Below the pieces are notes generated by a model. It saw only the letters and a list, made by a program, of their open reading frames with translations. It had not been told where the DNA came from and did not search any database. Positions 25,702-50,495 of a stretch of 64,000 nucleotides of DNA are shown here, piece by piece; positions within the stretch are counted from its first letter, which is position 1; each line of letters begins with the position of its first letter. Source of the stretch: Burkholderiaceae bacterium. GTDB lineage: Bacteria > Pseudomonadota > Gammaproteobacteria > Burkholderiales > Burkholderiaceae_C. Position numbers and translations under genes: made by a program. The stretch is taken from contig JAHCKM010000001.1 of assembly GCA_026125795.1 (NCBI GenBank), positions 1,612,001 to 1,676,000 of the forward strand, given 5' to 3'.

Positions 25702-25796
25702 GGCGCGCGCGGGCCGAGCGCCGGGCCGCTCCCAAGCCGGCCCGCATTCCCTCGGGGGATCGGCCGACGTACTCGTCGGACGAGGGGCAGACATGA
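25698..25796 (+). repeat. Operon spacer element, copy 1
   Basis: The spacer between thiolase and MaoC carries the core GCCGGGCCGCTCCCAAG at 25720-25736. A 32-base block (25711-25742) is identical to copy 2. A hairpin CCGACG-TACT-CGTCGG (25764-25779) and the ribosome site GAGGGG (25782-25787) finish it just before the next ATG. It is open as a 32-codon frame beginning at the upstream ATGA and ending at the downstream ATGA; the core reads RRAAPK. Confidence 0.75.
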
Positions 25797-26239
25797 CGAT
25801 CCACCGCCGCCACATCGGCCACGTGCTGCCGGCGTTCGACGTGGCGGTGGAAGCCGGCCGCCTGCGTTTCTTCGCCAAGGCCACCGGGCAGACCGACCCA
25901 ATCTACCTTGACGTGGCGGCGGCACGCGACGCCGGCCATCCGCATCTGCCCGTACCGCCGACCTTCTTCTTCTGCCTCGAGATGGAGGCACCCGATCCCG
26001 CGGCGATGCGCAAGTTGCTCGGCATCGACTACCGGCGCATTCTGCACGGCGAGCAGCACTTTCGCTACCACGCGATGGCCCACGCCGGCGACGTGCTGCA
26101 CTTCGAGCCGCGCATCGTCGACATCTACGACAAGAAGGGCGGCGCGCTCGAGTTCGTCAAGCGCCAGACGCGCGTGAGCAGCCAGCGCGGCGAGCTGGTG
26201 GCCGAGTTGACCTGCGTGACGGTGGTGAGAAATGGCTGA
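25793..26239 (+). CDS. MaoC-like hydratase subunit (N-terminal FAS1-type hotdog)
   Basis: A 148-aa single-hotdog protein like the MaoC_dehydrat_N domain (PF13452-like). It has RLRFFAKATGQTDPIYLDVA and LPVPPTFFFCLEME at the N-terminal side, then GEQHFRYHAMAHAGDVLHFE. This half usually lacks the catalytic Asp/His pair and works with a partner hotdog. Its last 8 bases overlap the next MaoC gene in another frame. By family precedent the two chains form a heteromeric enoyl-CoA hydratase for bulky acyl-CoAs, as in ChsH1/ChsH2 of steroid degraders. Confidence 0.8.
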   Translation: MTIHRRHIGHVLPAFDVAVEAGRLRFFAKATGQTDPIYLDVAAARDAGHPHLPVPPTFFFCLEMEAPDPAAMRKLLGIDYRRILHGEQHFRYHAMAHAGDVLHFEPRIVDIYDKKGGALEFVKRQTRVSSQRGELVAELTCVTVVRNG

Positions 26240-26642
26240 GGCTGGTCATGGTGATTTCGAGGTCGGCGACGCGTTGCCGCCACTCGACGCCGAGCCGATC
26301 AGCCGGCTGGCGCTGGCGCTGTACTGCGGCGCGTCAGGCGACCACAACCCGATCCACGTCGACATCGACTACGCGCGTGCCGCCGGCATGGACGACGTGA
26401 TCGCGCACGGCATGCTGGCGTTCGCCTATGCGGCACGGCTCGTCACCGTGTGGGTGCCGCAGCGCGCGCTCGAGTCGCTGTCGGCGCGTTTCGTCGCAGT
26501 GACGCACGTTGGAGACCGTTTGACCTGCAGCGGCACGGTGGCCGAGAAGCTCGACCACCGGCGCGTGCGGATCGTGCTGTCGGTGGCCGATCAGCATGGC
26601 GGGCAAAAGCTCGCCGGCGAGGCGGTGGTGGCGCTCGCATGA
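26232..26642 (+). CDS. MaoC-like enoyl-CoA hydratase, catalytic subunit
   Basis: A 136-aa MaoC/(R)-hydratase protein. The catalytic block is CGASGDHNPIHVDIDYARAA (near 36-55, Asp and His of the hydratase-2 motif), followed by DVIAHGMLAFAYAARLV. It adds water to trans-2-enoyl-CoA to give the (R)-3-hydroxy form. Overlap with the preceding half-hotdog gene (8 bases) supports a two-subunit enzyme. The product would fit the (R)-specific SDR at 30399. The ATG at 26232 precedes the stop of its partner. Confidence 0.85.
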   Translation: MAEAGHGDFEVGDALPPLDAEPISRLALALYCGASGDHNPIHVDIDYARAAGMDDVIAHGMLAFAYAARLVTVWVPQRALESLSARFVAVTHVGDRLTCSGTVAEKLDHRRVRIVLSVADQHGGQKLAGEAVVALA

Positions 26643-26773
26643 CACGGGCCGAGCGCCGGGCCGCTCCCAAGCCGGCCGCTCGCCTGCACGGACAGTCCAC
26701 TGAACTGTCCGTGTCCGGGCTCACCCCCTCGGAGGATCGTCCGACGTACTCGGCGGACGAGGGGCGGTCATGA
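26639..26773 (+). repeat. Operon spacer element, copy 2 (with extra inverted repeat)
   Basis: The core GCCGGGCCGCTCCCAAG is at 26655-26671, and the 32-base block 26646-26677 is identical to copy 1. An insert absent from copy 1 contains the perfect 10-bp inverted repeat CACGGACAGT/ACTGTCCGTG (26687-26713). The 3' part again reads CCTCGGAGGATCG..CCGACGTACTCG..GAGGGG, as in copy 1. It is open as a 44-codon frame with ATGA overlaps at both ends. Confidence 0.75.
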
Positions 26774-27924
26774 CTCCGGTCTGGATGGACGACGAAGTCG
26801 CCGCGTTCCGCGACGCGGTGCGCAAGATGTTCGAGCGCGAGTTCGCGCCGCACGAGCTGCGCTGGCGCGAGCAGCACTGCGTCGACCGATCGGTGTGGCG
26901 GCGTGCCGGCGCGCTCGGCCTGTTGTGCACCAGCATCCCGGCGGCCTACGGCGGCGCCGGCGGCACCTTTGCGCACGAGGCTGTGGTGGCGCAGGAGCAG
27001 GCGCGTGCACTCGTCAACAGCTTCAGCATCAACGTGCACAGCGGCATCGTCGCGCATTACCTGCTCGCCTACGGCAGCGAGGCGCAGAAAGATCGCTGGC
27101 TGCCGCCGATGGCGCGCGGCGAGATCGTGGCCGCGATCGCGATGACCGAGCCCGGCGCCGGCACCGACCTGCAGGCGATTCGCACGCGAGCGCGCCGCGA
27201 TGGCGATCACTACGTGATCGACGGCGCCAAGACCTTCATCACCAACGGCCACCACGCCGATCTGATCTGCGTTGCGGTCAAGACCGACCCCGAGGCGCGC
27301 GGCGCGTACGGCCTCTCGCTGCTGATGGTCGAGACCGAGGGGCTGGCAGGCTTTCGGCGCGGCGGACTGCTGCCCAAGATCGGACAGCACGGGCAGGACA
27401 CCAACGAGCTCTACTTCGACGCGGTGCGCGTGCCGGCTTCGAACCTGCTCGGCGGCGAAGAAGGACAGGGCTTTCGCCAACTGATGCAGCAGCTGCCGCG
27501 CGAGCGGCTCCTGATCGCGGTGGCCGCGCTCGGCACGATGCAGCGTGCGCTCGACGAGACGCTGGCCCATGTGCGCGAGCGCCAGGTGTTCGGCGCGCCG
27601 CTGCTGGCGCTGCAGCACACGCGCTTCACGCTCGCCGAGTGCCGCACCGAGGCGGCGTTGTGCGAGGCCTATGTCGACCAGTGCATCGTGCGCCAGCTCG
27701 CCGGCACGCTCGACGTGCCGAGTGCGGCGATGGCCAAGTGGTCGGCCACCGACAAGCTCGGCCGCATCGTCGATGCCTGCCTGCAGCTGCACGGCGGCTA
27801 CGGCTACATGGCCGAGGTGCCGATCGCGCGCATGTACGTCGATGCGCGCGTGCAGCGCATCCTCGGCGGCACCAACGAAGTGATGAAGGAACTGATCGCT
27901 CGTGCGATGGAGGCCGGTGCGTGA
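26770..27924 (+). CDS. Acyl-CoA dehydrogenase (LCAD-like catalytic Glu)
   Basis: A 384-aa flavoprotein. It has VAAIAMTEPGAGTDLQAIRT (FAD/substrate loop), DGAKTFITNGHHADLI, and LHGGYGYMAEVPIARMYVDA near the C-terminus. The usual C-terminal catalytic Glu is Gly here (RILGGTNEV). A Glu in MQQLPRERLLIA, on helix G, matches the alternative base used by long-chain and isovaleryl-CoA dehydrogenases. It oxidises acyl-CoA to the 2-enoyl form and passes electrons to ETF. It lies between spacer copies 2 and 3. Confidence 0.88.
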   Translation: MTPVWMDDEVAAFRDAVRKMFEREFAPHELRWREQHCVDRSVWRRAGALGLLCTSIPAAYGGAGGTFAHEAVVAQEQARALVNSFSINVHSGIVAHYLLAYGSEAQKDRWLPPMARGEIVAAIAMTEPGAGTDLQAIRTRARRDGDHYVIDGAKTFITNGHHADLICVAVKTDPEARGAYGLSLLMVETEGLAGFRRGGLLPKIGQHGQDTNELYFDAVRVPASNLLGGEEGQGFRQLMQQLPRERLLIAVAALGTMQRALDETLAHVRERQVFGAPLLALQHTRFTLAECRTEAALCEAYVDQCIVRQLAGTLDVPSAAMAKWSATDKLGRIVDACLQLHGGYGYMAEVPIARMYVDARVQRILGGTNEVMKELIARAMEAGA

Positions 27925-27983
27925 GCCGCCGGGCCACTCCCAAGGCGCACACCGCAGCGCGCAGCGCGGAGGCTCGTCGATGA
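27921..27983 (+). repeat. Operon spacer element, copy 3
   Basis: The core at 27928-27944 has one change (GCCGGGCCACTCCCAAG). It is the short form of the spacer, 20 codons open from GTGA on the upstream stop to ATGA on the CoA-ligase start, with the core read as RRATPK. GGAGG before the next ATG supplies the ribosome site. Confidence 0.7.
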
Positions 27984-29608
27984 GCGCATGGCGCGTGGCT
28001 GCGAAGGTCCACTGGCCGTCCGGGCTGCGCGACGAGCCGCCGCTGCCGCGCGGCAGTCTGTGGGACGCCATGGCCGCGTCGGCCGAACGGCATCCCGACA
28101 AGACGGCATTCGCCTGCGGTGACGCAGCGCTGACCTACGCCGATCTCGTGCGCACGGCCGAGTGCCTTGCCGGCTGGCTGCAAGGTCATGCCGGTGTGCA
28201 GCGCGGCGACCGTGTGCTGCTGTGGAGCCAGAACAGCCTGGCGTTCGTGGTCGCCAGCTACGCCACGCTGCGCGCCGATGCCGTGGTCGTGCCGGTCAAT
28301 GCGATGTGGACCACCGAGGAGGTGCGCCACGTCGTGAACGACAGCGCCGCCCGCGTCGCGATCGTCGCCGACGAGTTCATGCCGCGGCTGAGCCCCTTGC
28401 TCGGGCCCGAGGGCATCGTGCACGCGCTGCGCATCGGCGGCGCGGGCGGCGAACGGCTGACGCCGTGGGACGACGCGCTCGCGGCCGGCGTGCGGCCGCT
28501 GCCGCATCGCGCCGACCCTGACGATCTGGCTGTGCTGCCGTACACGTCGGGCACCACCGGCCGTCCCAAGGGCTGCATGCACACGCACGCGAGCATCCAG
28601 TGCGCCAACCTCGCCGCCGCCGCATGGCGCGCGCAGAGCGCGGACGAGGTGTTTCTCGCCGTCGCGCCGATGTTCCACGCACTCGGCCTGCAGAACGGGC
28701 TGATCCTGCCGGCGATGCTCGGCGCCACCGCGCTGCTGCTGCCGCGCTGGAACCGCGACGCGGCGCTCTCACTGATCGAACAGCACCGCGTCACCTGCTG
28801 GGCGGCGCCGCCGACGATGCTGCTCGACTTCTTCTCGAACCCGGCGCTGACGCCGCCGGCGGTCGCGAGCCTGCGCCTGGTCAACGGCGGCAGCGCGCCG
28901 ATGCCGGCCGCGCTGGAGCAAACGATGCGCGAGCGATTCGGCATCGTCTACAACGAGGGCTACGGCATGACCGAGACCGCGTCGTTCCTGATCAGCAACC
29001 CGCTGCAGCGGCCCAAGCGTGGCTCGCTCGGCGTGCCGGGGCCGGGCGTCGATTGCCGCATCGTCGACCCCGACACCTTGCGCGAGCTGGCCGTCGGCGG
29101 GGTCGGGGAGATCGTCGTCGCCGGGCCGCAGTTGATGCGCGGCTACTGGCGCGCGCCCAAGGCCGACGCGTCGGCCTTTGTGCAGACAGCAGACGCGGAG
29201 GCCTTTATCGAGATCGACGGCCGGCGCTTCCTGCGCACCGGCGACCTCGGCCGTGCCGATGCCGAGGGCTATCTGTTCATGACCGATCGCCTGAAGCGGA
29301 TGATCAGCGTGTCGGGCTACAAGGTGTGGCCTGCAGAGGTCGAAGCCGCGTTGCTCCAGCACCCCGCGGTGCACGAGGTCTGCGTGATCGCCACCGCCGA
29401 TGCGCGCAGCGGCGAGGCGGTGAAGGCGCTGGTGGTCGAGAAGCCCGGCGCGCGCATCGATGCCGCGGCCTTGATCGCCTGGGCGCGCGAGCGAATGGCG
29501 GTCTACAAGGCGCCGCGCACCGTCGAGGTGTTGGCGTCGTTGCCCAAGTCGAACACCGGCAAGGTGCTGTGGCGCGAGCTGCAGCAACGCGAACGAGAGG
29601 GACGTTGA
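27980..29608 (+). CDS. AMP-dependent acyl-CoA ligase 1
   Basis: A 542-aa ANL-superfamily ligase. P-loop LPYTSGTTGRPKGCMHTH (near 185), NEGYGMTETASFL (near 318), the hinge RTGDLGRADAEGYLFMTDRL, and the catalytic-lysine end SLPKSNTGKVLWREL (near 525). It makes an acyl-adenylate and then the CoA ester of a carboxylic acid; chain length cannot be told, though medium-chain or fatty acid CoA ligases look closest. The start MSAWRV follows GGAGG. Its stop overlaps the next start by one base (TGATG). Confidence 0.88.
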   Translation: MSAWRVAAKVHWPSGLRDEPPLPRGSLWDAMAASAERHPDKTAFACGDAALTYADLVRTAECLAGWLQGHAGVQRGDRVLLWSQNSLAFVVASYATLRADAVVVPVNAMWTTEEVRHVVNDSAARVAIVADEFMPRLSPLLGPEGIVHALRIGGAGGERLTPWDDALAAGVRPLPHRADPDDLAVLPYTSGTTGRPKGCMHTHASIQCANLAAAAWRAQSADEVFLAVAPMFHALGLQNGLILPAMLGATALLLPRWNRDAALSLIEQHRVTCWAAPPTMLLDFFSNPALTPPAVASLRLVNGGSAPMPAALEQTMRERFGIVYNEGYGMTETASFLISNPLQRPKRGSLGVPGPGVDCRIVDPDTLRELAVGGVGEIVVAGPQLMRGYWRAPKADASAFVQTADAEAFIEIDGRRFLRTGDLGRADAEGYLFMTDRLKRMISVSGYKVWPAEVEAALLQHPAVHEVCVIATADARSGEAVKALVVEKPGARIDAAALIAWARERMAVYKAPRTVEVLASLPKSNTGKVLWRELQQREREGR

Positions 29609-30402
29609 TGGACGAAGTGCTCTGTCACGTGGACAGCGGCGTCGCGACGCTGACGCTGAACCGGCCCGCACAACGCAACGCGATCGACGCGGCGATGCGC
29701 GAGGCGCTGCTGCAGCGTCTCGACGCGGTGCGGTCCGATGCGAGCGTGCGTGCCGTCGTGCTCACCGGCGCCGGCGGTGCCTTCTGCGCCGGCGGTGACC
29801 TGCGCGGCATCGCCGCGGCGCAGCTCGACGAGTCGGGCTGGCGCACGCGCATGCACGAGTCGCAGCGGCCGATTCGCGCGCTGCTCGCGCTCGAGCAGCC
29901 GGTGATCGCCGCGGTCGACGGGCCGGCGTTCGGCGCCGGCTTCAGCCTTGCGCTCACGGCCGACATCGTGATCGCATCGACGAGTGCGCGCTTGTGCCTA
30001 GCATTCATGCGGCTCGGCCTGGTGCCGGACCTCGGCGCGCTGTACACGCTGCCGCGGGTGGTCGGCGTGCAGCGTGCGAAAGAGCTGATGCTGTCGGCGC
30101 GCGAGGTCGCGGCCGACGAGGCGCTGCGCTTGGGGCTGGCGATGGAGCTCGCCGCGCCCGAGCACGTGCTGGCGCGTGCGCAAGCGATCGCGCGCAGCTT
30201 TGCTGGCGCATCGCCGTTGGCCGCCGGCCTGGTCAAGCGCGCGCTCGGTGCGGCACCGGTTGCGAGCCTCGACACGATGCTCGGCATCGAAGCCGACGCG
30301 CAGGCGTTGTGCTTCGGCAGTGCGGCGCACCGCGCGGCGATCCAACGGTTTCTCGACAAGCAGCCGGCCACGTTTCGTTGGCCCGAGGGTGACCACACAT
30401 GA
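29608..30402 (+). CDS. Enoyl-CoA hydratase/isomerase
   Basis: A 264-aa crotonase-fold protein. It has VATLTLNRPAQRNAIDAAMR, the oxyanion-hole stretch GAGGAFCAGGDLRGIA (near 55-70), and FGAGFSLALTADIVIAS. In the active-site region, GLVPDLGALYTLPRVVG has Asp at the position where hydratases carry a Glu, so hydratase or isomerase activity is possible and the exact reaction is open. It overlaps the CoA-ligase stop by one base and the SDR start by four (ATGA). Confidence 0.85.
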   Translation: MDEVLCHVDSGVATLTLNRPAQRNAIDAAMREALLQRLDAVRSDASVRAVVLTGAGGAFCAGGDLRGIAAAQLDESGWRTRMHESQRPIRALLALEQPVIAAVDGPAFGAGFSLALTADIVIASTSARLCLAFMRLGLVPDLGALYTLPRVVGVQRAKELMLSAREVAADEALRLGLAMELAAPEHVLARAQAIARSFAGASPLAAGLVKRALGAAPVASLDTMLGIEADAQALCFGSAAHRAAIQRFLDKQPATFRWPEGDHT

Positions 30403-31313
30403 GCAAGATGATGCAAGGCAAGGTGGCTATCGTCACCGGTTCCGGCGGCGGCATCGGGCGCGACATCGCGCTGGCGATGGCGCGCGAAGGTGCGAAGCTG
30501 GTGATCAACGATATCGGCGCGTCGGTCGGTGGCGAGGGCGCGAGCGCCGGGCCGGCGCAGCAGGTGGTCGACGAGATCCGAGCCGCCGGCGGCGAGGCGA
30601 TTGCCAACACCGACTCGGTTGCCGATGCCGGGGCGGCCCAGCGCATCGTCACCACGGCGCTCGATGCGTTCGGCCGCGTCGATGCCGTCGTCAACAACGC
30701 CGGCATCCTGCGCGACCGCTTCTTCCACAAGATGAGCGTCGACGAGTTCGATGCCGTCATCAAGGTGCACCTGTACGGCTCCTACTTCGTCAGCCGCGCC
30801 GCGGCGAATCACTTCAAGGAGCAGGGCAGCGGCGTCTTCGTGCACATGACGTCGACCTCGGGGCTGATCGGCAACTACGGCCAGGCCAATTACGCGGCGG
30901 CCAAGCTCGGCATCATGGCGCTGTCGAAGTCGATCGCGCTCGACATGCAGAAGTTCAACGTGCGCTCCAACTGCATCGCGCCGTTCGCGTGGAGCCGCAT
31001 GATCGGCACCATCCCGGCCGAGACCGATGCCGAGAAGGCGCGCGTGGAGCGCATGAAGCAGATGACGCCGGCCAAGATCGCGCCGCTGGCGGTGGCCTTG
31101 TGCAGCGACGCCAGCGCGCACGTGAGCGGCCAGGTCTTCGCCGTGCGCAACAACGAGATCTTTCTGATGAGCCAGCCGCGGCCGATTCGCTCGGTGCATC
31201 GCGGCGAGGGCTGGACGCCCGAAGCGGTGGCGCAGCACGCGCTGCCGGCGCTGCAGGCCTCGTTCTACCCGCTCGACCGCTCGGGCGACGTGTTCAGCTG
31301 GGAGCCGTTCTGA
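30399..31313 (+). CDS. SDR, (3R)-hydroxyacyl-CoA dehydrogenase-like
   Basis: A 304-aa SDR of the 17-beta-HSD4/multifunctional-enzyme type. NAD site TGSGGGIGRD near 14-23; then INDIGASVGGEG, a fingerprint of the peroxisomal MFE-2 dehydrogenase domain; NNAGILRDRFFHKM; and the active site YAAAK following TSTSGLIGNYGQAN. The C-terminal extension after 240 is normal for the group. It probably oxidises the (R)-3-hydroxyacyl-CoA made by the MaoC pair. It overlaps both neighbours. Confidence 0.85.
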   Translation: MSKMMQGKVAIVTGSGGGIGRDIALAMAREGAKLVINDIGASVGGEGASAGPAQQVVDEIRAAGGEAIANTDSVADAGAAQRIVTTALDAFGRVDAVVNNAGILRDRFFHKMSVDEFDAVIKVHLYGSYFVSRAAANHFKEQGSGVFVHMTSTSGLIGNYGQANYAAAKLGIMALSKSIALDMQKFNVRSNCIAPFAWSRMIGTIPAETDAEKARVERMKQMTPAKIAPLAVALCSDASAHVSGQVFAVRNNEIFLMSQPRPIRSVHRGEGWTPEAVAQHALPALQASFYPLDRSGDVFSWEPF

Positions 31314-32524
31314 TGGAGGCCGTTCGCCGCGCGGCGATCGTCGCGCCGCTGCGCAGCGCGGTCGGCAGCTTCGGCGGCAGCCTGCGCCCGCTGTCGGCCG
31401 GCGAGCTGGCCAGCGGGGTGCTCAAGGCGTTGGTGGCGCGCACCGGCATCGACGCCGCGTGCATCGACGACGTGGTGTTCGCGCAGTCGTACCCCAACGG
31501 CGAGACGCCGTGCATCGGCCGCTGGGCGGCGCTGCAGGCCGGCTTGCCGGTCGACGTGCCCGGCATGCAGCTCGACCGGCGCTGCGGCGGTGGGCTGCAG
31601 GCGATCGCCAGCGCCGCGATGATGGTGCAGAGCGGTGCCGCCGATGTGGTCGTGGCCGGCGGTGTCGAGAGCATGAGCAACATCGAGTACTACAGCACCG
31701 ACGTGCGCTGGGGCGCGCGGGCCGGTTCGGTGACGCTGCACGATCGGCTCGAGCGCGCGCGCGAGCGTTCGCAGCCGGAGGATCGCTTCGGCCCGATCTC
31801 CGGAATGATCGAGACGGCCGAGAACCTGGCGCGCGAGTTCCGCATCGGCCGCGACGAGGCCGATGCCTACGCGCTGCGCAGCCACCAACGCGCCGCGGCC
31901 GCGTGGGACGCTGGGCGCTTCGATGCCGAACTCGTGCCGCTGCAGGTGCCGCAGCGCAAGGGCGCGCCGACTTCCTTCTCGCGCGACGAAGGCGTGCGCG
32001 CCGACGCGTCGCTCGAGTCGCTGGCCAGGCTCAAGCCGATGCTGGACGACGGCGTGGTCACCGCCGGCAACGCGAGCCAGCAGAACGACGCCGCGGCGGC
32101 CTGCCTGGTCGTTGCCGAGGACCGGTTGAAGGCACTCAAGCTCGAACCGGTCTCCTGGCTGGTGGGCTGGAGCGTCGCGGGCTGCGAGCCAGCCACGATG
32201 GGCATCGGCCCGGTGCCGGCAGTGCGCAAGCTGTTCGCCAGGACTGGCCTGGGCTTCGACGACATGGACCTGGTCGAGTTGAACGAAGCCTTCGCTTGCC
32301 AGGTGCTGGCGGTGCTGAAGGGCTGGGGCTGGAACGACCCCGATCGCCTCAACGTCAACGGCTCGGGCATCTCGCTGGGCCACCCGATCGCCGCCACCGG
32401 CGTGCGCATCGCCGCGACGCTGCTGCACGAGCTGCAGCGCCGCCGCGGCCGCTACGGCCTCGAGACGATGTGCATCGGCGGCGGGCAGGGCATGGCGGCG
32501 ATCTTCGAAAGGGCAGACCGATGA
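31313..32524 (+). CDS. Acetyl-CoA C-acyltransferase (thiolase)
   Basis: A 403-aa degradative thiolase. The N-terminal nucleophile is in MQLDRRCGGGLQAIASAAMM (Cys near 89; the usual SGLQA is GGLQA here). Then come NEAFACQVLAVLKGW, SGISLGHPIAATGVR with the catalytic His, and METMCIGGGQGMAAIF-like end with the second Cys. It cleaves 3-ketoacyl-CoA to acetyl-CoA plus the shortened acyl-CoA. The start overlaps the SDR stop by one base, and the stop overlaps the next gene by four. It is the second thiolase of the cluster. Confidence 0.9.
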   Translation: MEAVRRAAIVAPLRSAVGSFGGSLRPLSAGELASGVLKALVARTGIDAACIDDVVFAQSYPNGETPCIGRWAALQAGLPVDVPGMQLDRRCGGGLQAIASAAMMVQSGAADVVVAGGVESMSNIEYYSTDVRWGARAGSVTLHDRLERARERSQPEDRFGPISGMIETAENLAREFRIGRDEADAYALRSHQRAAAAWDAGRFDAELVPLQVPQRKGAPTSFSRDEGVRADASLESLARLKPMLDDGVVTAGNASQQNDAAAACLVVAEDRLKALKLEPVSWLVGWSVAGCEPATMGIGPVPAVRKLFARTGLGFDDMDLVELNEAFACQVLAVLKGWGWNDPDRLNVNGSGISLGHPIAATGVRIAATLLHELQRRRGRYGLETMCIGGGQGMAAIFERADR

Positions 32525-34478: not shown

Positions 34479-34491
34479 AGGGAGCGCGACG

Positions 34492-36683: not shown

Positions 36684-36698
36684 AACGAGGAACCGAGC

Positions 36699-41916: not shown

Positions 41917-41952
41917 CGGGTCGGTCAGAGTGGTTCCTCGAATCCAAGCACC

Positions 41953-42813
41953 TTAACCCTTTGCGCCGATCGCAGTATTGGAAGAATCCGAAACGACACG
42001 CCGCATGAACTGCTGCGGCGTCAGGCCGCACAGGGCGCGGAACTCGTTGATCAAGTGGGACTGGTCGTAGTAGCCGGCGCGAAGCGCCAGTTGGGCCCAT
42101 TGCGGCGTCTCGGCCGTCCGCAACAGACGCAACGTTCCATGTAGGCGTTGCAGGCGGCGCCATACGCTGGGCGCCAAACCAAGTTGCGCAGCGAACACCT
42201 GCTGCAGGCGCCGCTCGCTCAAGCTCATCTTGTCCGCCAGTGCCCGGATGGAGATGCCGCCGGCACTGGCGCGCAAGGCGCTCGCCGCGTACTCCGCCAA
42301 ACGAAAGGAACTGGTTTCAGTCTGCCTGCGCATTGCGCGCAGTGACTGCAGGACAAGGTTGACGCGTGCGACGTCGTCGGCTGCCATGGCCAGTTGATCC
42401 GGCAAGTGGCGGTGCGCCTTGTCGGCGATGTCATCCCAGGGCAGGGTGCGACCGGCCAACTCGTCAGCTGGCACGCCGAACAGTCCGAGAGTGGCCCCCG
42501 GTTGCAGCGTGACCGAGAGCCCGTGCATGTGCCCGCGCATCGTCAACACGACGGGACTCGCTCTGGCGCCGGCAATGTGAATGGACGCCGAGCCGCTCTG
42601 CAGCACGATGAGCAGGCGCGATGCTCCATCGGGAAGAACGCGCTCAACGACCTCCTTTCCTTGCGCGAACCGTTCTTCGTAAGCGGTTGCGTGAGCCACC
42701 GCCGTCCTCAGCGCGGGAGGCACATCGAACGCTCGCAAGGTCTTTGCCGGGACGGTGGTCCCAAGGGCGCACGGCGGGTCGTCCGGCAGTCGAAGGAAGA
42801 GGCGTTCGGACAT
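41953..42813 (-). CDS. AraC-family regulator upstream of the SDR/GNAT pair
   Basis: A 286-aa regulator. The N-terminal sensor (~1-165) has a beta-rich pattern (GASRLLIVLQSGSASIHIAG; TLQPGATLGLFGVPADELAG), and the C-terminal AraC domain has ISIRALADKMSLSERRLQQV and LALRAGYYDQSHLINEFRAL. The start at 42813 is chosen because GGAG lies 7 bases upstream; ATG 42828 and a longer open frame are less likely. It probably controls the two genes after it. Confidence 0.85.
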   Translation of the reverse strand: MSERLFLRLPDDPPCALGTTVPAKTLRAFDVPPALRTAVAHATAYEERFAQGKEVVERVLPDGASRLLIVLQSGSASIHIAGARASPVVLTMRGHMHGLSVTLQPGATLGLFGVPADELAGRTLPWDDIADKAHRHLPDQLAMAADDVARVNLVLQSLRAMRRQTETSSFRLAEYAASALRASAGGISIRALADKMSLSERRLQQVFAAQLGLAPSVWRRLQRLHGTLRLLRTAETPQWAQLALRAGYYDQSHLINEFRALCGLTPQQFMRRVVSDSSNTAIGAKG

Positions 42814-43503
42814 GCGCAACTCCGTCATCACGAGGGAGCTTATCGGTATCGGGTCGAGTGCGCTCCTCGGCGAGCAGGCGCTGCATCGGAAGCACCAACC
42901 ACACGCACAGCGTATTGGGTATTGGCGAGGTCGTCGGTCCCGCCGAAGCGGGCTGAACGGCGGCTTGCCGGCAGCAGGGTGAACGACGGCTCGTTTCCGG
43001 CAGCGTGAGTACGCAGCCGCGCCAGGAAGCTGACTCTCGATGCGAAGGCCGGCCATGGGCAGCTATCTGCGAACCTCGGGACCTCGCGCTGCCGGCCATG
43101 AGAGACCTTCCTGATGCGCTCGGAACTCAGGTCGTTGAGCTTGTGCGAGTGGCGGGTTTCCGGCGACCTATCGATCGCGCGTGTCGCGCCGCTTGGCACC
43201 CAATCCCCTGCCGCTGCCAACCGATGTGCTGAAGGCGCTCGAGCGCGCCATGGTGGCCTGAATGCGAACTGGGCGGCGGCATCCAGCTCAGTCCTTGCGC
43301 TCATCCACGAGCACGTCCGACAGCCGCTGCGCTGCGGGCGCTAGCGAGCGGCCCTGCTTGGTGACCAGCGCCACGTCGCGCGACACGCTCAGAGGCAGCA
43401 CGACGCGGCCGCGGTGCGCGCCTGCGACGCGGTGCGCAGCGAAGGGCGCAGCGCAGTGCTGCAGGTCGCGCTCGGGCCGCACTCACCAGTGCGCGCCGCC
43501 CGT
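42814..43503. other. 690-base region of degraded sequence
   Basis: No intact gene is visible. Codon texture is broken and short frames in several phases look like remnants. The clearest is a LysR C-terminus on the minus strand (see 43288-43470). On the plus strand, a tail reading LAPNPLPLPTDVLKALERAM ends with a stop near 43261 and could be another remnant. No transposase is seen. Confidence 0.5.
43288..43470 (-). pseudogene. LysR-family regulator, C-terminal remnant
   Basis: The frame gives AHRGRVVLPLSVSRDVALVT and KQGRSLAPAAQRLSDVLVDE, matching the last strands of LysR effector domains (VVxLPLxxxRxVxLVTxxGRxLxPAAQRLxDxL). No DNA-binding half or start lies upstream in any frame. It is probably what is left of a regulator once paired with a neighbour. 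Confidence 0.55.
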
Positions 43504-45222
43504 TCAAGCCGCCTGCGTCGCCTGTCCCACCACCACGTACCAGGCGACGAAGGCCGCGCTGATCAGCGCGCCGGGCAGGTGGTTGCCGGTGCGCCGATAG
43601 GAAAAGGTCGACACCACGGCCACGAAGCTCATCAGCGGCACGAAGTTGATCGAGATGATCGTGCGCAGTGCGTCGAACATGTGGAACTCGAGCATGTGGT
43701 GTGTGGCCAGCATCAGACCGTACTGCACCACGAGGAAGACGACGAAGCCGCCCGCCAGCGCCGCGATCGACACCAGGTACTGCCCGCCGACGCTCGTCAC
43801 CGCCGGCGTCAGCGCGCTGTGCAGCGAACGCAGCGCGATCGTGAAGAATACGGCGAACACGATCAGATAGACCGGGAACGCCGTCGCCTGCCAGCGACTC
43901 ATCGGCTTGAACGCGATGAACCAGATGCGGAAGTCGAGGTTGAATATGAACTGCACCGTGGCGACCAGCGCGTAGGCGATCGCCACCGTGGCCGCCGCGA
44001 TGCCCAGCGTGCGCAGCGGTTGGCGCAACAGCGGGCCGCCCATCGAGCCGGTCAACCGCGAGGCCGCGAGGATGATCACCGCGTTGCAGAGCGCCCAGAA
44101 AGCGATCTCGTTGGTGAAGAGCTGCGGCAGCCACGGCGAGGCCGGCAGCAGCGCGCCGCCGAGTCGGGCTAGCGGCAGGAACGTCAGCGCGGGCACGAGG
44201 GCGCCGAACACCAGCGTGCCCCACCAGCGCGGGCCGCGCGGCGCCGCGCCGGCCGCGGGCACGTCGGCTCGCAGCGATGCGAAGGCCGGCAGCCGCAACA
44301 GCCCATCGAAGACGCCGAGCACGAAGACGGCCAGGCCGATCAGCGCGACGAAGGTGCCCGTCTCCTTCCAGTACCACGTCTGGTCGTTGGCCGGCCGCGG
44401 CGTGCCGCCGCGCAGCGTGCGCTGGAACCAGTCGATGCTGTGCCCGATCGCCGTCGGCGAGATGTGGTCCATCGGGTGCGTGATGGCGGGCGTGTGCAGC
44501 ACGCGCGCAGTCCCCGCTTCGAGCGAGCCGTAGACACGGCCGGGTTCGATCGCGCCGTTGGCGCCGAACACCGCCTGCAGCTTCTTGCTGCTCGCGACAT
44601 CGGCCGCCGTCGGCACCTGCCACATGATTCCCGGGAACTCGTCGTAGCGGCTGAACACCAGCGCCAGGTTGCGCGGGAACTGCGGCGAGCCCTCCGGCGC
44701 GAATGGCTTGCCGGTGCTCGATCCTTCGAGCACCAGCGCCTTGTAGGCATCGGGCATCGCGGCGGCGGCGTTGACAACCGTCCAGCCGCCCATGCTGTGA
44801 CCCTCCAACCCCACGTTGTCCTTGTCGACGATGTCGAGGCTGCGCAGGTACTTGAGGCCATCGATGCCGCCGAACGCATTGGCGAACGCCGGTGGCGCGC
44901 TGTAGCCGTGGCCGGTCTGATCGAGCGCCAGCACCACGTAGCCGCGCCGCGCGAACTCGATGGCGAAGCCGCTCTGCGCCTCGCGCGAATTGAAGTAGCC
45001 ATGCACTGCGAGGACGCCCGGCGCCGGTGTCTTCGCGGTGGCGCCCGGCGGCACGTACAGATGGCCACTCATCGGCGTGCCGTTGCTGCCGGTGAAGCGC
45101 ACATCCTGGATGCGGATGCCGCCGGCGGTCTGGACGAAGTGCGCCAACAGCACGCCGCAGGCGACGATCAGCAGGCCGATTAGCTGCAGGCGCAGCCGGT
45201 GTGCAGGGTGGTCGGCGGGCAT
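43504..45222 (-). CDS. Alpha/beta hydrolase fused to a multi-helix membrane domain
   Basis: 572 aa. A first membrane helix (LQLIGLLIVACGVLLAHFVQ) is followed by an outward-facing alpha/beta hydrolase (~30-290) with VLAVHGYFNSREAQ (oxyanion loop), the nucleophile elbow GHSMGGW (Ser143), and the candidate His in THPMDHISPTAIGHS. The C-terminal ~260 residues hold about seven more helices of unknown type. Esterase or lipase action at the membrane is likely. GAGGAGGT precedes the ATG; a longer frame to 45408 looks non-coding. It is divergent from an AraC gene. Confidence 0.75.
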   Translation of the reverse strand: MPADHPAHRLRLQLIGLLIVACGVLLAHFVQTAGGIRIQDVRFTGSNGTPMSGHLYVPPGATAKTPAPGVLAVHGYFNSREAQSGFAIEFARRGYVVLALDQTGHGYSAPPAFANAFGGIDGLKYLRSLDIVDKDNVGLEGHSMGGWTVVNAAAAMPDAYKALVLEGSSTGKPFAPEGSPQFPRNLALVFSRYDEFPGIMWQVPTAADVASSKKLQAVFGANGAIEPGRVYGSLEAGTARVLHTPAITHPMDHISPTAIGHSIDWFQRTLRGGTPRPANDQTWYWKETGTFVALIGLAVFVLGVFDGLLRLPAFASLRADVPAAGAAPRGPRWWGTLVFGALVPALTFLPLARLGGALLPASPWLPQLFTNEIAFWALCNAVIILAASRLTGSMGGPLLRQPLRTLGIAAATVAIAYALVATVQFIFNLDFRIWFIAFKPMSRWQATAFPVYLIVFAVFFTIALRSLHSALTPAVTSVGGQYLVSIAALAGGFVVFLVVQYGLMLATHHMLEFHMFDALRTIISINFVPLMSFVAVVSTFSYRRTGNHLPGALISAAFVAWYVVVGQATQAA

Positions 45223-45395
45223 CAAGTGTTCTACCTCCTCGGGACTGTGATCGCGACGGCGGAGCGAGACCCGCCGGGGGGTGAATCTAGGGTGGGTGTC
45301 ACGATCCGTCTTGGCGAAACGGGACGTCGTTGTCCGATCGGGATGGGGCGAGTCGGCCTCTGCCGAGCCCTTCACTCGCGCCCCAAGCAAAGGGA

Positions 45396-46307
45396 ATGGC
45401 AGTTCCACCGATGCGAGATGCTGCTCACTGCACCTACGATGGCCGAGCCTTTGCCGACGCCATGCTCATCGCTCCCCTTCCCGGTCCATACGGCCTGTAC
45501 AACGTTTCCGTCATGCCGCGGTTCCTGCTCGACAGCAGCCGCGTGGGGTGGCAGGGCGCCTACTTCACGGACATCCTGGGCGCCGACGAGGGCGTCGTCG
45601 ATCACGGACACGAGCGCTATTGCTTGCAGCGCGGCCTTCACCGCGAGGGGCGCCGGCCGCTCGGTCGACGCACGTGGCAAGACGTGCGGGTCGGCATCTC
45701 GGTGTGGCGTTCGGGCGATGAACAGCGTTTTCAGTGGCGCAACGGCGGCCGCTCGCAGTTCTTGTTCGTCGCTCCCGGGCGGGTCGCGGCCGTGCTCGGC
45801 GACGATCGGCTGCTCGCGCGCGCCGGACAAGATGCACCCCTGCAGTCGCCCTTGCTCGACCTCATCTTCGACGCTTTGCAGGCCGATCTCGCTCAGGGCA
45901 GTCCCGCCGGCCCGCTCGTCGGCGACTCGCTGATCGCGGCGTTGGTTGCCTCTCTTGCGGCGCCGGCGACACCCGCAGCGACCGATCGTCTGTCGGCACA
46001 GGCGCGCAACCGTGCGATCGATTTCATCGAGGCGCGATTCGCTTCGCCCATCTCACTGCAGGAGCTGGCCGAAGCGGCCGGGCTGGGCGTTCGCCAGTTC
46101 ACACGGGCCTTCCGCGAGGCCACCGGGCGATCGGCTCACCAGTACCTGCTGCACCGTCGGGTCGAGCAGGCGAAGGTGTTGATTCGCCAGGGCCTGCCCC
46201 TGGCCGACGTGGCGGTGCAGTGCGGCTTCTGTGACCAGAGCCAGCTCACGCGCACCTTCGCGCGGCACGTCGGCACGTCACCCGGTCGCTTCCGTGCGTC
46301 GACGTGA
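45396..46307 (+). CDS. AraC-family regulator divergent from the membrane hydrolase
   Basis: A 303-aa regulator with an N-terminal ~180-residue sensor and a C-terminal helix-turn-helix pair (ISLQELAEAAGLGVRQFTRA; PLADVAVQCGFCDQSQLTRT). The sensor has ERYCLQRGLHREGRRPLGRR and FQWRNGGRSQFLFVAPGRV, cupin-like. The start is uncertain: ATG 45396 (AGGG adjoining), ATG 45411, or an in-frame TTG at 45330. A 173-base gap to the hydrolase should contain both promoters; I see no clear operator. 219 gene-free bases follow. Confidence 0.82.
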   Translation: MAVPPMRDAAHCTYDGRAFADAMLIAPLPGPYGLYNVSVMPRFLLDSSRVGWQGAYFTDILGADEGVVDHGHERYCLQRGLHREGRRPLGRRTWQDVRVGISVWRSGDEQRFQWRNGGRSQFLFVAPGRVAAVLGDDRLLARAGQDAPLQSPLLDLIFDALQADLAQGSPAGPLVGDSLIAALVASLAAPATPAATDRLSAQARNRAIDFIEARFASPISLQELAEAAGLGVRQFTRAFREATGRSAHQYLLHRRVEQAKVLIRQGLPLADVAVQCGFCDQSQLTRTFARHVGTSPGRFRAST

Positions 46308-46526
46308 CAAGCAGCCCATCCGATGCGCTGCAATCCGAATGCGTCATTCATGGGTGTGCAGCCAGGAATGCCAACAGTGCAGCTGCGCCAGGCGGGTAGA
46401 TGCGGCGGACGAACGACCGCTTTGCAGAGGCGGGCCGTCCGCTTCGGGTCGGTACCGCGACTTCGAGTAGAGGAAGAGCAGTCGACGTCGTGGCCTGGAA
46501 GCCTCGAGTTTCGCCACACGCCCCAG

Positions 46527-47741
46527 CTACTTCAGCGCCAGCACCGGGCCGATCGGATCAAGGTCGACGCCGTTGTAGCGCATCGGCTGCATCGCAGCGA
46601 CCGCGTGCAGGTCGGCCGCACTGTTGGCAACGACGATGCCGGGCAGCAACAACTCGACCCTGGGGCTCTTCAGGTTGCTGGCGATGCGGCGCACGTTCTC
46701 GCGCGTGAGCTCGTTGCCGCACTCGCGCAGCACATGGGCCATCAGCTGCGCGGCGATGTAGCCCGACGCACCTGAGTTGTTCATCGGGTCCACGTCGGGC
46801 GCGTGGGTCTTCAGGAGATCCTTGTAGCGCACCATCTCGGGATCGCCGGCCCATTTCTTCGAGGCGGGCTCCTTGTAGAACGCGAGCGTGATCGTGCCTT
46901 TGGACCTCTCCGCGCCGGCCGGCTCCAGCGCCATCTTCACCGACGAACCGGCGATGTTGACGTAGCGCTCGGGCGTCCAGCCGATCTCGGCCGCTTTGCG
47001 CAGCGCCTGCGCCACGGTGCGCGCCGTGGCCCCGGTGACGAGCACGTTGGCGCCGGCCGAGCGCAGCTGCACGATCTGCGAATCGACGGTCGGATCGGTG
47101 ACCTCGAAGCTCGCCTTCGCGACGATGGCCGACGCCTTCGGCCCCAGGCCCTGCTCCAGTCCATGCAGCACCTCGCGCCCGAGGTCGTCGTTCTGGTAGA
47201 GCACGCCGATCTTCGGCTCCTTCACGTGTTCGAGGATGTGGCGCGCGAAGACGCGGCCCTCGCCCTTGTAGCTGCCGAGCAGCGGCGTCGTCCAGGGGTT
47301 CTTCTGCGCGTCGTCGAAGTGGCTGGCGCCGCTTTGCAGCAGCAGCTGCGGCACCTTCTTTGCGTTCATGTAGCGCTGCACCGCGATGTTGGCGCCGGTG
47401 CCGATGCTGCTGAACACGGCCAGGACCTGGTCCTGCTCAACCATGCGGCGCACCACCTCCATCATCTTCGGCGGCGAGTACTGGTCGTCGTAGGTGATGA
47501 TCCTCACCTTGCGGCCGTTGATGCCGCCTTCACCGTTGAGCTTCTTGAAGTAGGCCTCGGCCACCTTGCCGATGATCGCGAAGCCCGATACCGGGCCGGA
47601 CAGCGGCATCGGCATGCCGAGCACGATCTCGGTGTCGCTGGCGCCCGGGTCGTACTTCTTCTGTGCCCATGCCTGCGTGGCATGCGCCAGCGCACTCGCG
47701 GCAAGTGTTCCCAGCATCAGGCGGCGGCGTTGCATCTGCAT
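46527..47741 (-). CDS. Branched-chain amino-acid-type ABC substrate-binding protein
   Basis: A 404-aa periplasmic binding protein of the LivJ/K-like Peripla_BP_6 type. The signal peptide is MLGTLAASALAHATQAWAQ (Tat-like RRR before it); then EIVLGMPMPLSGPVSGFAII, RVEQ-like VVRRMVEQDQVLAVFSSIGT, and the hinge GYIAAQLMAHVLRECG. The ligand may be an amino acid, a carboxylate or an aromatic acid; many such operons do not carry amino acids. ATG 47741 has AAGGAG upstream. It is the last gene of the operon, after spacer copy 4. Confidence 0.88.
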   Translation of the reverse strand: MQMQRRRLMLGTLAASALAHATQAWAQKKYDPGASDTEIVLGMPMPLSGPVSGFAIIGKVAEAYFKKLNGEGGINGRKVRIITYDDQYSPPKMMEVVRRMVEQDQVLAVFSSIGTGANIAVQRYMNAKKVPQLLLQSGASHFDDAQKNPWTTPLLGSYKGEGRVFARHILEHVKEPKIGVLYQNDDLGREVLHGLEQGLGPKASAIVAKASFEVTDPTVDSQIVQLRSAGANVLVTGATARTVAQALRKAAEIGWTPERYVNIAGSSVKMALEPAGAERSKGTITLAFYKEPASKKWAGDPEMVRYKDLLKTHAPDVDPMNNSGASGYIAAQLMAHVLRECGNELTRENVRRIASNLKSPRVELLLPGIVVANSAADLHAVAAMQPMRYNGVDLDPIGPVLALK

Positions 47742-47761
47742 CAGTGGTCTCCTTCGGTGGC

Positions 47762-47824
47762 TCATTGGGCATCCTCCGGCCTGCGGCCTCCGGTATTCGC
47801 CTTGGGAGCGGCCCGGCGGCTCAT
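47762..47824 (-). repeat. Operon spacer element, copy 4
   Basis: Minus sense, between the LivM-like and binding-protein genes. The core GCCGGGCCGCTCCCAAG is at 47801-47817. It is open for 20 codons from ATGA on the upstream stop, with the core read as RRAAPK. It ends with TGA at 47762-47764, 20 bases before the next ATG. The first 13 codons parallel copy 3 closely. Confidence 0.75.
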
Positions 47825-48825
47825 GGGCGTGGACGGGTGAAGCGCTCGCGCAGGCGGCGCAGAAGGCCAACCACTCCGCCCGGCATCAGGAACATGAACG
47901 CGATCAGCACCAGGCCGTAAATGGCCCACGGTGCATCCTTCGAGATTTGCTCGGCGAGCGTGGGCGCGAACATGATGAAAGCCGCACCCCAGAGTGCACC
48001 CAAGACGGTGGCCACGCCGCCGACGACGCTCGCGACCAGCAGCGAGATCGACAGGAACAGCGAGAACGAATCCGGCGCTACGAACTGCACCGCGATCGCC
48101 GACAGCGCGCCGCCGACGCCGGTGTAAGCCGCGGACACCCCGAAGGTCATCGACTTGTAGTGACGGTTGTTCACGCCCATGGCTTCCGACGCCAGCGCGT
48201 GATCGCGGATCGCACGCATTGCGCGCCCGCTGCCGCTGCCCAGCAGGTTGTGGGCAACGATGAACATCAGCACCGACACCGCGAGCGCGAACAGGTAGAT
48301 CCACTGGTCTTCGTCCAACGGCAGGCCGAACGGTGCGCTGGGCTTGTCGAGCACCAGGCCCTGCACGCCGCCGGTCCATTGGCCGAGCCGCGGGTTCTTC
48401 AGCACCTGCGGCAGTGCGACGGCCAGCGCGAAGGTCGCCAGCGCGAGATAGAGGCCCTCGAGCTTCAATGCCGGCCGGCCGAACAGATAGCCGGCGGCGA
48501 GGCACACGGCACCGGCGGCGGGAACGGTCAGCCAGTACGGCACCGAGAGATGCGCCATCAGGATTCCGGTGGTGTAGGCGCCGATCGCATAGAACGCGCC
48601 GTGGCCGAGCGAGATCTGGCCGTTGTAGCCGGTCAGCATGTTGAGTCCCAGCACCGCGATGGCGTAGGACAGCACCATGGTCGCCTGGAACAGCTGATAG
48701 CCCTTGAGCACGAACGCGGCGCCGAAGGCCAGCAGCACCAGGCAAGTGAGCCATGGCCAAGCCTGGCCGAACGCGACCTTCGGCTCGGCGCGCGCGCGGG
48801 CAGGGGGCGTCGCGACGGCACTCAT
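47821..48825 (-). CDS. livM: Branched-chain amino-acid-type ABC permease (LivM-like)
   Basis: A 334-aa inner-membrane permease with ~9-10 helices. Family motifs: LNMLTGYNGQISLGHGAFYA near 60, RAMRAIRDHALASEAMGVNN near 205 (the EAA-like loop contacting the ATPase), and SLFLSISLLVASVVGGVATV. The start overlaps the LivH-like stop by four bases. It works with LivH, LivG and LivF; substrate as for the binding protein. Confidence 0.9.
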   Translation of the reverse strand: MSAVATPPARARAEPKVAFGQAWPWLTCLVLLAFGAAFVLKGYQLFQATMVLSYAIAVLGLNMLTGYNGQISLGHGAFYAIGAYTTGILMAHLSVPYWLTVPAAGAVCLAAGYLFGRPALKLEGLYLALATFALAVALPQVLKNPRLGQWTGGVQGLVLDKPSAPFGLPLDEDQWIYLFALAVSVLMFIVAHNLLGSGSGRAMRAIRDHALASEAMGVNNRHYKSMTFGVSAAYTGVGGALSAIAVQFVAPDSFSLFLSISLLVASVVGGVATVLGALWGAAFIMFAPTLAEQISKDAPWAIYGLVLIAFMFLMPGGVVGLLRRLRERFTRPRP

Positions 48826-49694
48826 ACTCGCGTGACGATCGCGCGGCCGAGCAGGCCGGACGGTTTCACCACCAGCACGCCGACGATCAGCACCAGCGCG
48901 ACCGACAGCTTCAGGTCAGTGCCGACGACGTAGGTGCCGAGCAGGTTCTCGAGCACGCCGACCAGAAAGCCGCCGACGATGGCACCGATGGGGTTGTTGA
49001 TGCCGCCCACCAGCGCGCCGGCGAACGCGTACAGCAGCACGCCGCTCATCAGATGCGGATCGAGGAAGACCAGCGGCGCGACCAGCATGCCTGCAACCGC
49101 GCCGATCGCGCCGGCCAGGCCCCAGCCCAGCATCAGCATGCGGCCGACATCGATGCCGATGAGGCGCGACGAGACCGGGTTCTGCGCCGCCGCTCGCATC
49201 GCCAGGCCCAGTGGCGTCCAGCGGAAAAAGGCGAACAGCAGCAGCACCATCACGAAGGTCACGCCGATCGCGCCGACGTCGTGCGCCGACATCAGCTTGC
49301 TGCCGTACCACGCGTCCGGCGGGAACGGGCTCGGGAACTGGCGGATCGTGTGGCCGAACAACAGGCCTGCGAGGCTGTGGAAGATGACCAGCAGCCCGAC
49401 AAAGATGACGACGATCGCGAGCACCGGCTTGTCGTGCATCGGCCGGATCACCGCAAACTCCACGGCCGCCGCCAGCACGAAGGACAGTGCCGTCGTGAGG
49501 CCGAATGCCACCCAGTACGGCATGCCCGACTGCAGCAGCGCCCACGCGAGGAAGGTCGAGAACATCGCCATCTCGCCCTGCGCGAAATTGATGTGGTGCG
49601 TCGACTGGTAGATCATCACCAGCGCCAGCGCCAGACTCGCGTAGATGCCGCCGGTCGCAAGGCCGGCGAGCAGCTGGTGGATGAAGGCGTCCAT
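48822..49694 (-). CDS. livH: Branched-chain amino-acid-type ABC permease (LivH-like)
   Basis: A 290-aa permease with ~8 helices. It has LLAGLATGGIYASLALALVM, THHINFAQGEMAMFSTFLAW, the coupling loop AMRAAAQNPVSSRLIGIDVG, and PIGAIVGGFLVGVLENLLG. It lies 22 bases after the LivF-like gene. The GVNN/GIDVG loops of both permeases are intact, so the transporter looks functional. Confidence 0.9.
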   Translation of the reverse strand: MDAFIHQLLAGLATGGIYASLALALVMIYQSTHHINFAQGEMAMFSTFLAWALLQSGMPYWVAFGLTTALSFVLAAAVEFAVIRPMHDKPVLAIVVIFVGLLVIFHSLAGLLFGHTIRQFPSPFPPDAWYGSKLMSAHDVGAIGVTFVMVLLLFAFFRWTPLGLAMRAAAQNPVSSRLIGIDVGRMLMLGWGLAGAIGAVAGMLVAPLVFLDPHLMSGVLLYAFAGALVGGINNPIGAIVGGFLVGVLENLLGTYVVGTDLKLSVALVLIVGVLVVKPSGLLGRAIVTRV

Positions 49695-49716
49695 GTGTTT
49701 TCCGGTCGTCCCGGGG

Positions 49717-50433
49717 TCAGCCGCCCAGGTAGACGCGGCGCACGATGTCGTTGCCGCGCACTTCGTCGGAGGTGCCGGACAGCACGATGCGGCCGGTCTC
49801 CATCAGATAAGCCTGGTCGGCCAGGTCCAGCGCGAGGCGCGCGTTCTGCTCCACCAGCAGGATGGACGCTCGTTCCTCGCGATTGATGCGCCGCATGATC
49901 GAAAAGATGTCGCGCACCACCAGCGGCGCGAGCCCGAACGAGGGTTCGTCCAGCAGCAGCAGGCGGGGGCGGCCCATCAGCGCGCGGCCGATCGCCAGCA
50001 TTTGTTGCTCGCCGCCCGAGAGGGTGCCGGCCTGCTGATGACGTCGCTCCTGCAGGCGCGGGAAGTAACCGTAGATGCGGCGCAGGTCATCGGCCAGACT
50101 GGCGCGGTTGTTTCGGGCGTGTCCGCCCAGCCGCAGGTTCTCCTCGGTGGTGAGGCCGAGGAAGGTGCCACGACCGTCCGGCACGTGGCCGATGCCGGCC
50201 TTCGCGATGCGCTCGGTGCGCCAGCCGTCGAGGCGTTCGCCGGCGAGGCTGATGCTGCCGCTGGTACTGACCATCAACTGGCAGATCGCGCGCAGCGTGC
50301 TGGTCTTGCCGGCGCCGTTGGCGCCCAGCAGCGCGACGATCCGGCCCTGCTCGACGTCGAGGTCGATGTCGTGCAGCACGCGCGTGCCGCCGTAGGCCGC
50401 GCCGAGGCTGCGCACTTGCAGCAGAGCCGTCAT
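49717..50433 (-). CDS. livF: ABC transporter ATP-binding protein (LivF-like)
   Basis: A 238-aa ATPase. Walker A LLGANGAGKTSTLRAI (near 36), signature LSGGEQQMLAIGRAL (near 136), Walker B LLLLDEPSFGLAPL, then ILLVEQNARLALDLADQAYL with the switch region. LivF-type proteins are recognised by GLAPL and VEQNA. ATG 50433 is chosen because it begins MTALLQVRSL at the normal place; spacer copy 5 lies just upstream. Confidence 0.92.
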   Translation of the reverse strand: MTALLQVRSLGAAYGGTRVLHDIDLDVEQGRIVALLGANGAGKTSTLRAICQLMVSTSGSISLAGERLDGWRTERIAKAGIGHVPDGRGTFLGLTTEENLRLGGHARNNRASLADDLRRIYGYFPRLQERRHQQAGTLSGGEQQMLAIGRALMGRPRLLLLDEPSFGLAPLVVRDIFSIMRRINREERASILLVEQNARLALDLADQAYLMETGRIVLSGTSDEVRGNDIVRRVYLGG

Positions 50434-50495
50434 CGGACGACCCTGCGCGCTGCGCGCTCCGGGGTGAGCGCTTGGGAGCGGCCCGGCGCGCTCAC
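50430..50495 (-). repeat. Operon spacer element, copy 5
   Basis: Minus sense, between LivG-like and LivF-like genes. The core GCCGGGCCGCTCCCAAG is at 50471-50487. It is open for 21 codons from GTGA on the livG stop to ATGA on the livF start, but here the core lies in another phase (read PGRSQ), so the peptide is not conserved while the DNA is. Confidence 0.72.

Follow-up and report, generated by a model that had tools for sequence, protein, structure and literature searches.

Small palindromic repeats are usually regarded as intergenic clutter that avoids genes. Rickettsia palindromic elements (RPE) are small palindromes whose insertion is compatible with translation, some of them lying in frame inside genes, and REP-type elements carry a GTAG or CGTC tag at the foot of their hairpin. 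RPE are named as such in PMC3733652. The Beta-proteobacterial repeat element (BRE; Hot et al. 2011, PMC3110155) is described as a unit of 75-91 bp with a G+C content of 69% that lies between genes, sometimes within open reading frames (ORFs), and in tandem with variable counts, in Bordetella, Polaromonas, Delftia, Acidovorax, Rhodoferax, Azoarcus and other lineages; the element is suggested there to move or to have moved in the past, and that text offers no function and mentions no fit to stop and start codons. Translational coupling by termination-reinitiation has been measured at ATGA pairs, according to PMC6728339. Here we describe a repeat family found in 64,000 nucleotides (the window) of a Burkholderiaceae bacterium (GenBank assembly GCA_026125795.1, contig JAHCKM010000001.1, positions 1,612,001 to 1,676,000), where five spacers within operons share the 17-base core GCCGGGCCGCTCCCAAG. 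These spacers are probably dispersed, non-autonomous, G+C-rich and partly palindromic repeats, a class likely to include BRE, which operons would tolerate as insertions transparent to translation.

The core lies on the forward strand at 25720-25736 and 26655-26671 (both exact) and at 27928-27944 (one change), and on the reverse strand at 47801-47817 and 50471-50487 (both exact), just where a sequence-only reading of the window had placed it. It follows the upstream stop codon by 18, 12, 3, 3 and 4 bases in copies 1 to 5, within the 20 or so bases given in that reading, and the gaps from stop to start measure 91, 127, 55, 55 and 58 nt when the overlapping ATG is counted as the start. What had been overlooked is an ORF that links the two genes across each copy. 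In all five, the upstream stop overlaps a start codon (ATGA or GTGA) from which a frame of 32, 44, 20, 20 and 21 codons, respectively, crosses the repeat, and the TGA that closes this mini-ORF overlaps an ATG (again ATGA) in frame with the next gene. The same holds beyond the window: of the co-directional copies beginning at an NTGA overlap, the majority make up a small reading frame complete at both ends, whichever frame the core is read in. A Pfam scan of the ten flanking proteins assigned the copies to two operons, unrelated as had been proposed, one with thiolase, MaoC-like, acyl-CoA dehydrogenase and AMP-ligase genes and the other encoding a Liv-type ABC transporter. There was no transposase among these ten proteins, the wider neighbourhood not having been checked gene by gene. 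The features are the following.

25698..25796, forward strand: mini-ORF of copy 1, 32 codons, from the ATGA overlapping the thiolase stop codon (25699-25701) to the ATGA at the start of the next gene (25793)
25709..25745, forward strand: hairpin of copy 1, arms GCGGGCC (25709-25715) and GGCCCGC (25739-25745) around the core at 25720-25736
26639..26773, forward strand: mini-ORF of copy 2, 44 codons, ATGA to ATGA, from the MaoC-like gene to the acyl-CoA dehydrogenase gene (ATG at 26770), core at 26655-26671
27921..27983, forward strand: mini-ORF of copy 3, 20 codons, GTGA to ATGA, from the acyl-CoA dehydrogenase gene to the AMP-ligase gene (ATG at 27980), core at 27928-27944
47762..47824, reverse strand: mini-ORF of copy 4, 20 codons, ATGA to ATGA, from the LivM-type permease gene to the periplasmic binding protein gene, core at 47801-47817
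50430..50495, reverse strand: mini-ORF of copy 5, 21 codons, GTGA to ATGA, between the LivG-type and LivF-type ATPase genes, core at 50471-50487
Copy 5: predicted stem of 8 bp around the core, GUGAGCGC/GCGCUCAC
24514..25701, forward strand: thiolase-like gene upstream of copy 1 (Pfam scan)
26770..27924, forward strand: acyl-CoA dehydrogenase gene between copies 2 and 3 (Pfam scan)
47821..48825, reverse strand: LivM-type permease gene (BPD_transp_2) upstream of copy 4 (Pfam scan)
49717..50433, reverse strand: LivF-type ABC ATPase gene downstream of copy 5 (Pfam scan)

For copies 2, 3 and 4 the scripted analysis set the start of the next gene 15, 15 and 24 nt further down, with the frame unchanged. 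Counting up to three mismatches, the window holds six core matches, against a mean of 1.13 and a maximum of 4 after shuffling; the sixth (43341-43357, three mismatches) looks like chance. Copies 1 and 2 have 33 identical bases in common, so that the long identity noticed earlier stands and only its figure of 32 changes. The five copies fall into at least two subclasses, copies 1 and 2 being long and copies 3 to 5 short; they share a core, as claimed, and are not the single class that the claim implied. Elsewhere in the window, two tRNA genes lie close together at 13270-13454 (Rfam match).

We defined a relay by script as a chain made of an NTGA at the upstream stop, an open frame through the repeat, and a TGA overlapping a downstream start in frame. 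The tally set aside 23 of 173 core matches that lie inside gene calls and 3 that lie far from genes. Relays were present at 67 of the 90 junctions with a sense repeat, at 6 of 24 with an antisense repeat, and at 18 of 112 junctions without repeat (gaps of 25-250 nt, some of which may hold a degenerate repeat). The fractions were 29/39, 4/15 and 5/38 for the own genome (loci L001-L100), and 38/51, 2/9 and 13/73 for loci L102-L202, from the genus and other genera and including four own loci, with the same gap limits for repeat-free junctions here and in the next set. A further set, L203-L362, was gathered only after the relay idea had been written down, and its loci L283-L342 are a limited choice among matches, not a census; relays occurred there at 8 of 21 sense, 12 of 24 antisense and 20 of 255 repeat-free junctions. 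Five more of these sense junctions run on in frame into the next gene, and seven have no overlapping start. The antisense relays of this set, among them two livG-livF orthologues with reversed repeats (L205 and L244), suggest that the strand of the repeat matters little. Frame closure is sensitive to small changes in length: when 0, 1 or 2 bases were put into the core in silico at repeat junctions starting with NTGA (gap of at most 300 nt), relays numbered 74, 20 and 19 of 94 in sense and 17, 2 and 2 of 28 in antisense.

The mini-ORFs of the listed relays have 25 distinct lengths, and the 77 core sites in the 67 relays use the three frames 33, 26 and 18 times. With all three frames of the core in use, it is not the peptide that is conserved. 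It is thus highly improbable that the mini-ORFs are real genes for small proteins spreading as gene cassettes, even if an open frame with start and stop in 74 of the 94 sense NTGA copies is what such cassettes would display. Antisense copies are open too, and the five peptides tried gave no Pfam or NCBIfam match at E <= 0.1.

Comparison of equivalent junctions is consistent with insertion. Two counterparts of the thiolase-MaoC cluster, one in another genome (L113 in G254) and one a paralogue in the own genome (L114, about 67% identical), have a 25-nt spacer plus TGAGATG at the junction that holds copy 1, with the protein ends in place. Copy 1 itself (25703-25798 and parts of it) recurs near full length at other loci, with 88-94% identity, in all five relatives from the same genus. 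We also surveyed the livG-livF junction, 61 times in 80 loci plus L093. Eighteen of these junctions are four-base overlaps, 17 are one-base overlaps and five contain a family repeat, with gaps of 55, 55, 70, 82 and 82 nt (58 nt for the window copy); a handful of further long gaps lack a core and stem from questionable start calls. Relative to a four-base overlap, repeat-bearing junctions are 59, 74, 86 and 62 nt longer, all 2 mod 3. Two paralogous livG-livF junctions of the own genome hold different subclasses. Where a junction is common to two species, both copies relay in L118/L119 and in L117/L121, and the latter pair (G252/G250) has repeat gaps as different as 109 and 190 nt with the relay frame kept in both. 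A match of at least four bases to AAGGAGGTG, resembling a Shine-Dalgarno sequence, stands ahead of the first NTGA at 47% of the 90 junctions with a repeat, 50% of the 32 plain four-base overlaps and 24% of 152 other stops; the closeness of the first two shares is expected if repeats entered old overlap junctions.

The whole own genome has 34 exact and 16 one-mismatch copies of the core, against none for the backwards pattern, one mismatch included, which bears out the dispersal proposed from the window. Looser family patterns give 89 matches against 2 in the control (GGCCGCYCCNAAG) and 92 against 1 (CCGGGCCGN{1,2}CCCAAG), and the union of these two overlapping patterns amounts to an estimated, not counted, 140 or so core sites in 6.57 Mb. 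We examined 62 exact cores, comprising all 43 sites of GGCCGCTCCCAAG and the 19 of GGCCGCTCCGAAG among the matches listed: 37 are sense and 11 antisense at co-directional junctions, 8 are convergent, 2 divergent, and 4 lie inside gene calls. As 139 of the 178 junctions in the same repeat-centred loci are co-directional (17 are convergent and 22 divergent), the 48 of 62 cores found at co-directional junctions say little by themselves. What is truly specialised is how precisely the repeats fit stop and start codons, not the co-directional share; the upstream stop ends 7-10 nt before GGCCG in 22 of the 37 own-genome sense sites. The sequence-only reading had seen a sense-oriented, non-autonomous element specialised for operon junctions. 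The orientation holds for the five window copies and fails for the family (11/62 antisense, 8/62 convergent), and the specialisation largely survives once the restriction to the sense strand is dropped, as repeats are also antisense, convergent and in frame inside genes.

At 13 of the 25 own-genome sites whose next gene reads towards the repeat, the core is 50-59 nt from the stop of that gene, with a second hairpin-like stretch between them (by eye). This regularity might be expected of intrinsic terminators or of elements stabilising mRNA 3' ends behind stop codons. Sense copies, however, sit inside operons directly before the next start, and by eye, with no formal terminator scan, no T-run follows their hairpins, and we judge this explanation unlikely. 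Repeats also occur in tandem arrays; inside genes, all eight tandem spacings are 60 or 84. Co-directional sense arrays (n=19) have spacings of 59, 59, 59, 62, 62 and 74 (2 mod 3), of 60, 78, 87, 90, 90, 108 and four times 111 (0 mod 3), and of 76, 91 and 91 (1 mod 3), these groups being small and relay membership not shown for every multiple-of-3 array. In L015 and L064 each tandem unit (2 mod 3) ends in its own ATGA. Convergent and antisense arrays are mixed (60, 82, 83, 84, 85, 86, 87, 91, 94 and 108).

Several copies inside genes keep the frame as well. Six 84-bp family units follow each other in frame within one long gene call (L361 in G204, 1517-2020), and repeats of different length lie in frame inside the same ABC ATPase gene in G000 (L065:5254) and G251 (L150:1674), between GIWE and TVLFVTHDI. 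In G237, gene calls with a 4-bp overlap onto the upstream gene open with 60-bp units (four in L348, one in L355), which extend the N terminus in frame, another means of remaining translatable. In-frame copies of this kind recall RPE in habit, whereas the present copies are mostly at gene junctions and many of them form separate coupled mini-ORFs.

Sorting by eye the 82 loose-core sites of the own genome, together with a blast of copy 1, yielded several subclasses. A1 reads TGAGCC-core-GCGAATNCCGGAG..GGAGGATGCCCA-ATGA and A2 reads TGAGCGC-core-CGCTCA.. or CGCGAA..; C has the core GGCCGCTCCGAAG followed by CCCCCTCGGGGGG..GGGGG; D, to which window copies 1 and 2 belong, reads GCGGGCCGAGC-core-CCGGCC.., then CCCTCGGGGGATCG..CGAGGGG; and B is mostly antisense with CCCCCTCGGGGGGCAGCGAACGCAGTGAGCGTGGGGG as second stretch. 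At one fixed register, at least five of six pairs form in 81 of 168 core sites, so placed that the core is a loop between co-varying arms (47 distinct arm pairs); six shifted registers gave 0-7 such sites, and shuffling of the partners gave 15 on average and 27 at most. Predicted RNA folds have a stem around the core in copies 1, 2 and 5. In G237, the repeats of L347 and L354 come directly behind terminator-like T-runs with which their right arm ACAAAAAG pairs (by eye), and the later tandem units of L347 have no left arm to match; perhaps the flank serves as template or as target for the right arm.

A conserved loop on a co-varying stem is what one would look for in a cis-regulatory RNA, which might bind a protein or alter Shine-Dalgarno pairing before the next start and so set the level of the downstream gene. 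By eye, sense subclasses do end in a Shine-Dalgarno-like purine run a few bases ahead of the ATG, and a possible pairing partner, a run of pyrimidines, lies further upstream; two species have also retained their copies, L118 and L119, at a shared junction. Yet the repeats occur in unrelated operons, in both orientations, at convergent sites, inside genes and in tandem arrays, and their folding energies are not unusual. The Rfam gathering score was reached in the window by two tRNAs only, and relaxing the threshold to E up to 5 in 25600-28100 returned three chance-level matches, none on a repeat. We consider regulation as the main role of the family doubtful; some repeats may tune the ratio of the two genes they separate.

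The exact 14-mer GGGCCGCTCCCAAG was present in 13 of 250 genomes sampled across the order, and only the own genome (40) and G193 (14) had more than two copies, so that looser patterns are needed for the wider family. The wider core CCGGGCCGN{1,2}CCCAAG occurred in 54 of the 250, exceeded ten copies in genomes of families f1, f4, f21, f30, f39 and f44, and reached 151 in G157 (control 0). Among 299 genomes, some genera of the own family had GGCCGCYCCNAAG well in excess of the control, and many others stayed close to the control level. The wider core was also found in 8 of 11 named genomes (3-31 matches against 0-3 in controls), the exceptions being Noviherbaspirillum, Paraburkholderia and Roseicella; Delftia acidovorans had 13 core matches against 2, and others were in Variovorax, Curvibacter and further genera. 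Carriage by plasmids or phages was considered and discarded: copy 1 had no match in plasmids or phages, and copy 4 none in plasmids. Five plasmid records, from Acidovorax, Rhodoferax, Variovorax, Azoarcus and Burkholderia, did match a related repeat from L345, with 46-75% of that repeat covered.

The present family is probably related to BRE, to judge by lineages, size and arrangement, which partly match those given in PMC3110155; none of the genomes searched is known to be Bordetella or Polaromonas. Intergenic arrays in G138, G157, G118 and G237, whose tandem periods are 81-94 bp, fit the BRE size, in one branch only; the window copies (gaps of 55-127 nt, subclass periods of 59-62 bp) are outside 75-91 bp. 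The fit to stop and start codons distinguishes the present repeats from BRE as described in the text of that paper. Besides BRE, we found no such repeat or fit described in the open-licence literature, and four literal forms of the core appeared in none of its papers.

Being dispersed, short, palindromic and in high copy number, the repeats also resemble REP, BIME and REPIN elements, and like REP units they occur in tandem, which raises the question of whether a REP-associated Y1 tyrosine transposase (RAYT) moved them. Their arms are variable and their loop conserved, unlike those elements, and no PF01797 (Y1_Tnp) match was obtained at E <= 0.001 in the own genome, which is 98.9% complete, by a search that was positive in 5 of 14 control genomes. 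By eye, with no formal count, we noticed neither a GTAG nor a CGTC tag at the foot of the hairpins. Mobilisation by a RAYT therefore seems quite improbable.

If the repeats are indeed tolerated insertions, their history might be pictured as follows. Copies would spread at the DNA level, by an enzyme or a recombination route, would have entered old stop/start overlap junctions, and would survive in operons mainly where the flow of ribosomes stays unbroken. A ribosome ending the upstream gene could re-initiate on the overlapping start, translate 20-80 codons of repeat and re-initiate on the next gene. Such passage would keep termination-reinitiation coupling and avoid an untranslated G+C-rich stretch open to Rho, which is why the repeats would be tolerated and transparent to translation. 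The codon arrangement at both repeat ends is the one at which coupling has been measured; the ATGA overlap of that work (PMC6728339) joins two genes directly, whereas here a repeat is interposed and joined at both ends. A stronger proposal, on which our opinion is evenly divided, is that the repeat class is adapted to operon overlaps, multiplying without polarity by means of the translation relay, with selection acting on the end-to-end frame and not on peptide or strand.

Several observations weigh against this account. Among NTGA junctions, 20 of the 94 in sense and 11 of the 28 in antisense do not relay, and antisense relays are only 4/15 in the own genome and 2/9 in L102-L202. At least two of the eight sense relays in L203-L362 (L327 and L359) look like chance, the livG-livF copy of L204 ends in TAATG and was scored as no relay, and one copy of the orthologue pair L175/L192 is out of frame. 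In 23 of 67 relays the two ends begin their NTGA with different bases; this is not what a clean target-site duplication would leave, and duplication of NTGA was rejected for that reason. Copies are related by descent, which makes the contrast less independent than the numbers look, and the gene calls rest on the analysis's own ORF scoring. As for the stem, its register was picked by eye before the test and leaves 87 of the 168 sites unmatched: no such stem is present in copies of type A1, window copies 3 and 4 among them, and the D-type copies 1 and 2 use another register. Nor do the window copies fold with better energies than dinucleotide shuffles (z from -1.27 to +1.66).

Overall, a repeat family spread across several families of one order shows a countable rule that ties insertion to ribosome traffic. 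If true, the relay would explain how repeats enter tightly packed operons, would provide many natural experiments on termination-reinitiation coupling, and would account, in these genomes, for ORFs of 20-80 codons and for some of the N-terminal extensions. Should the repeats shift the ratios of neighbouring genes as well, they would be a source of operon retuning.

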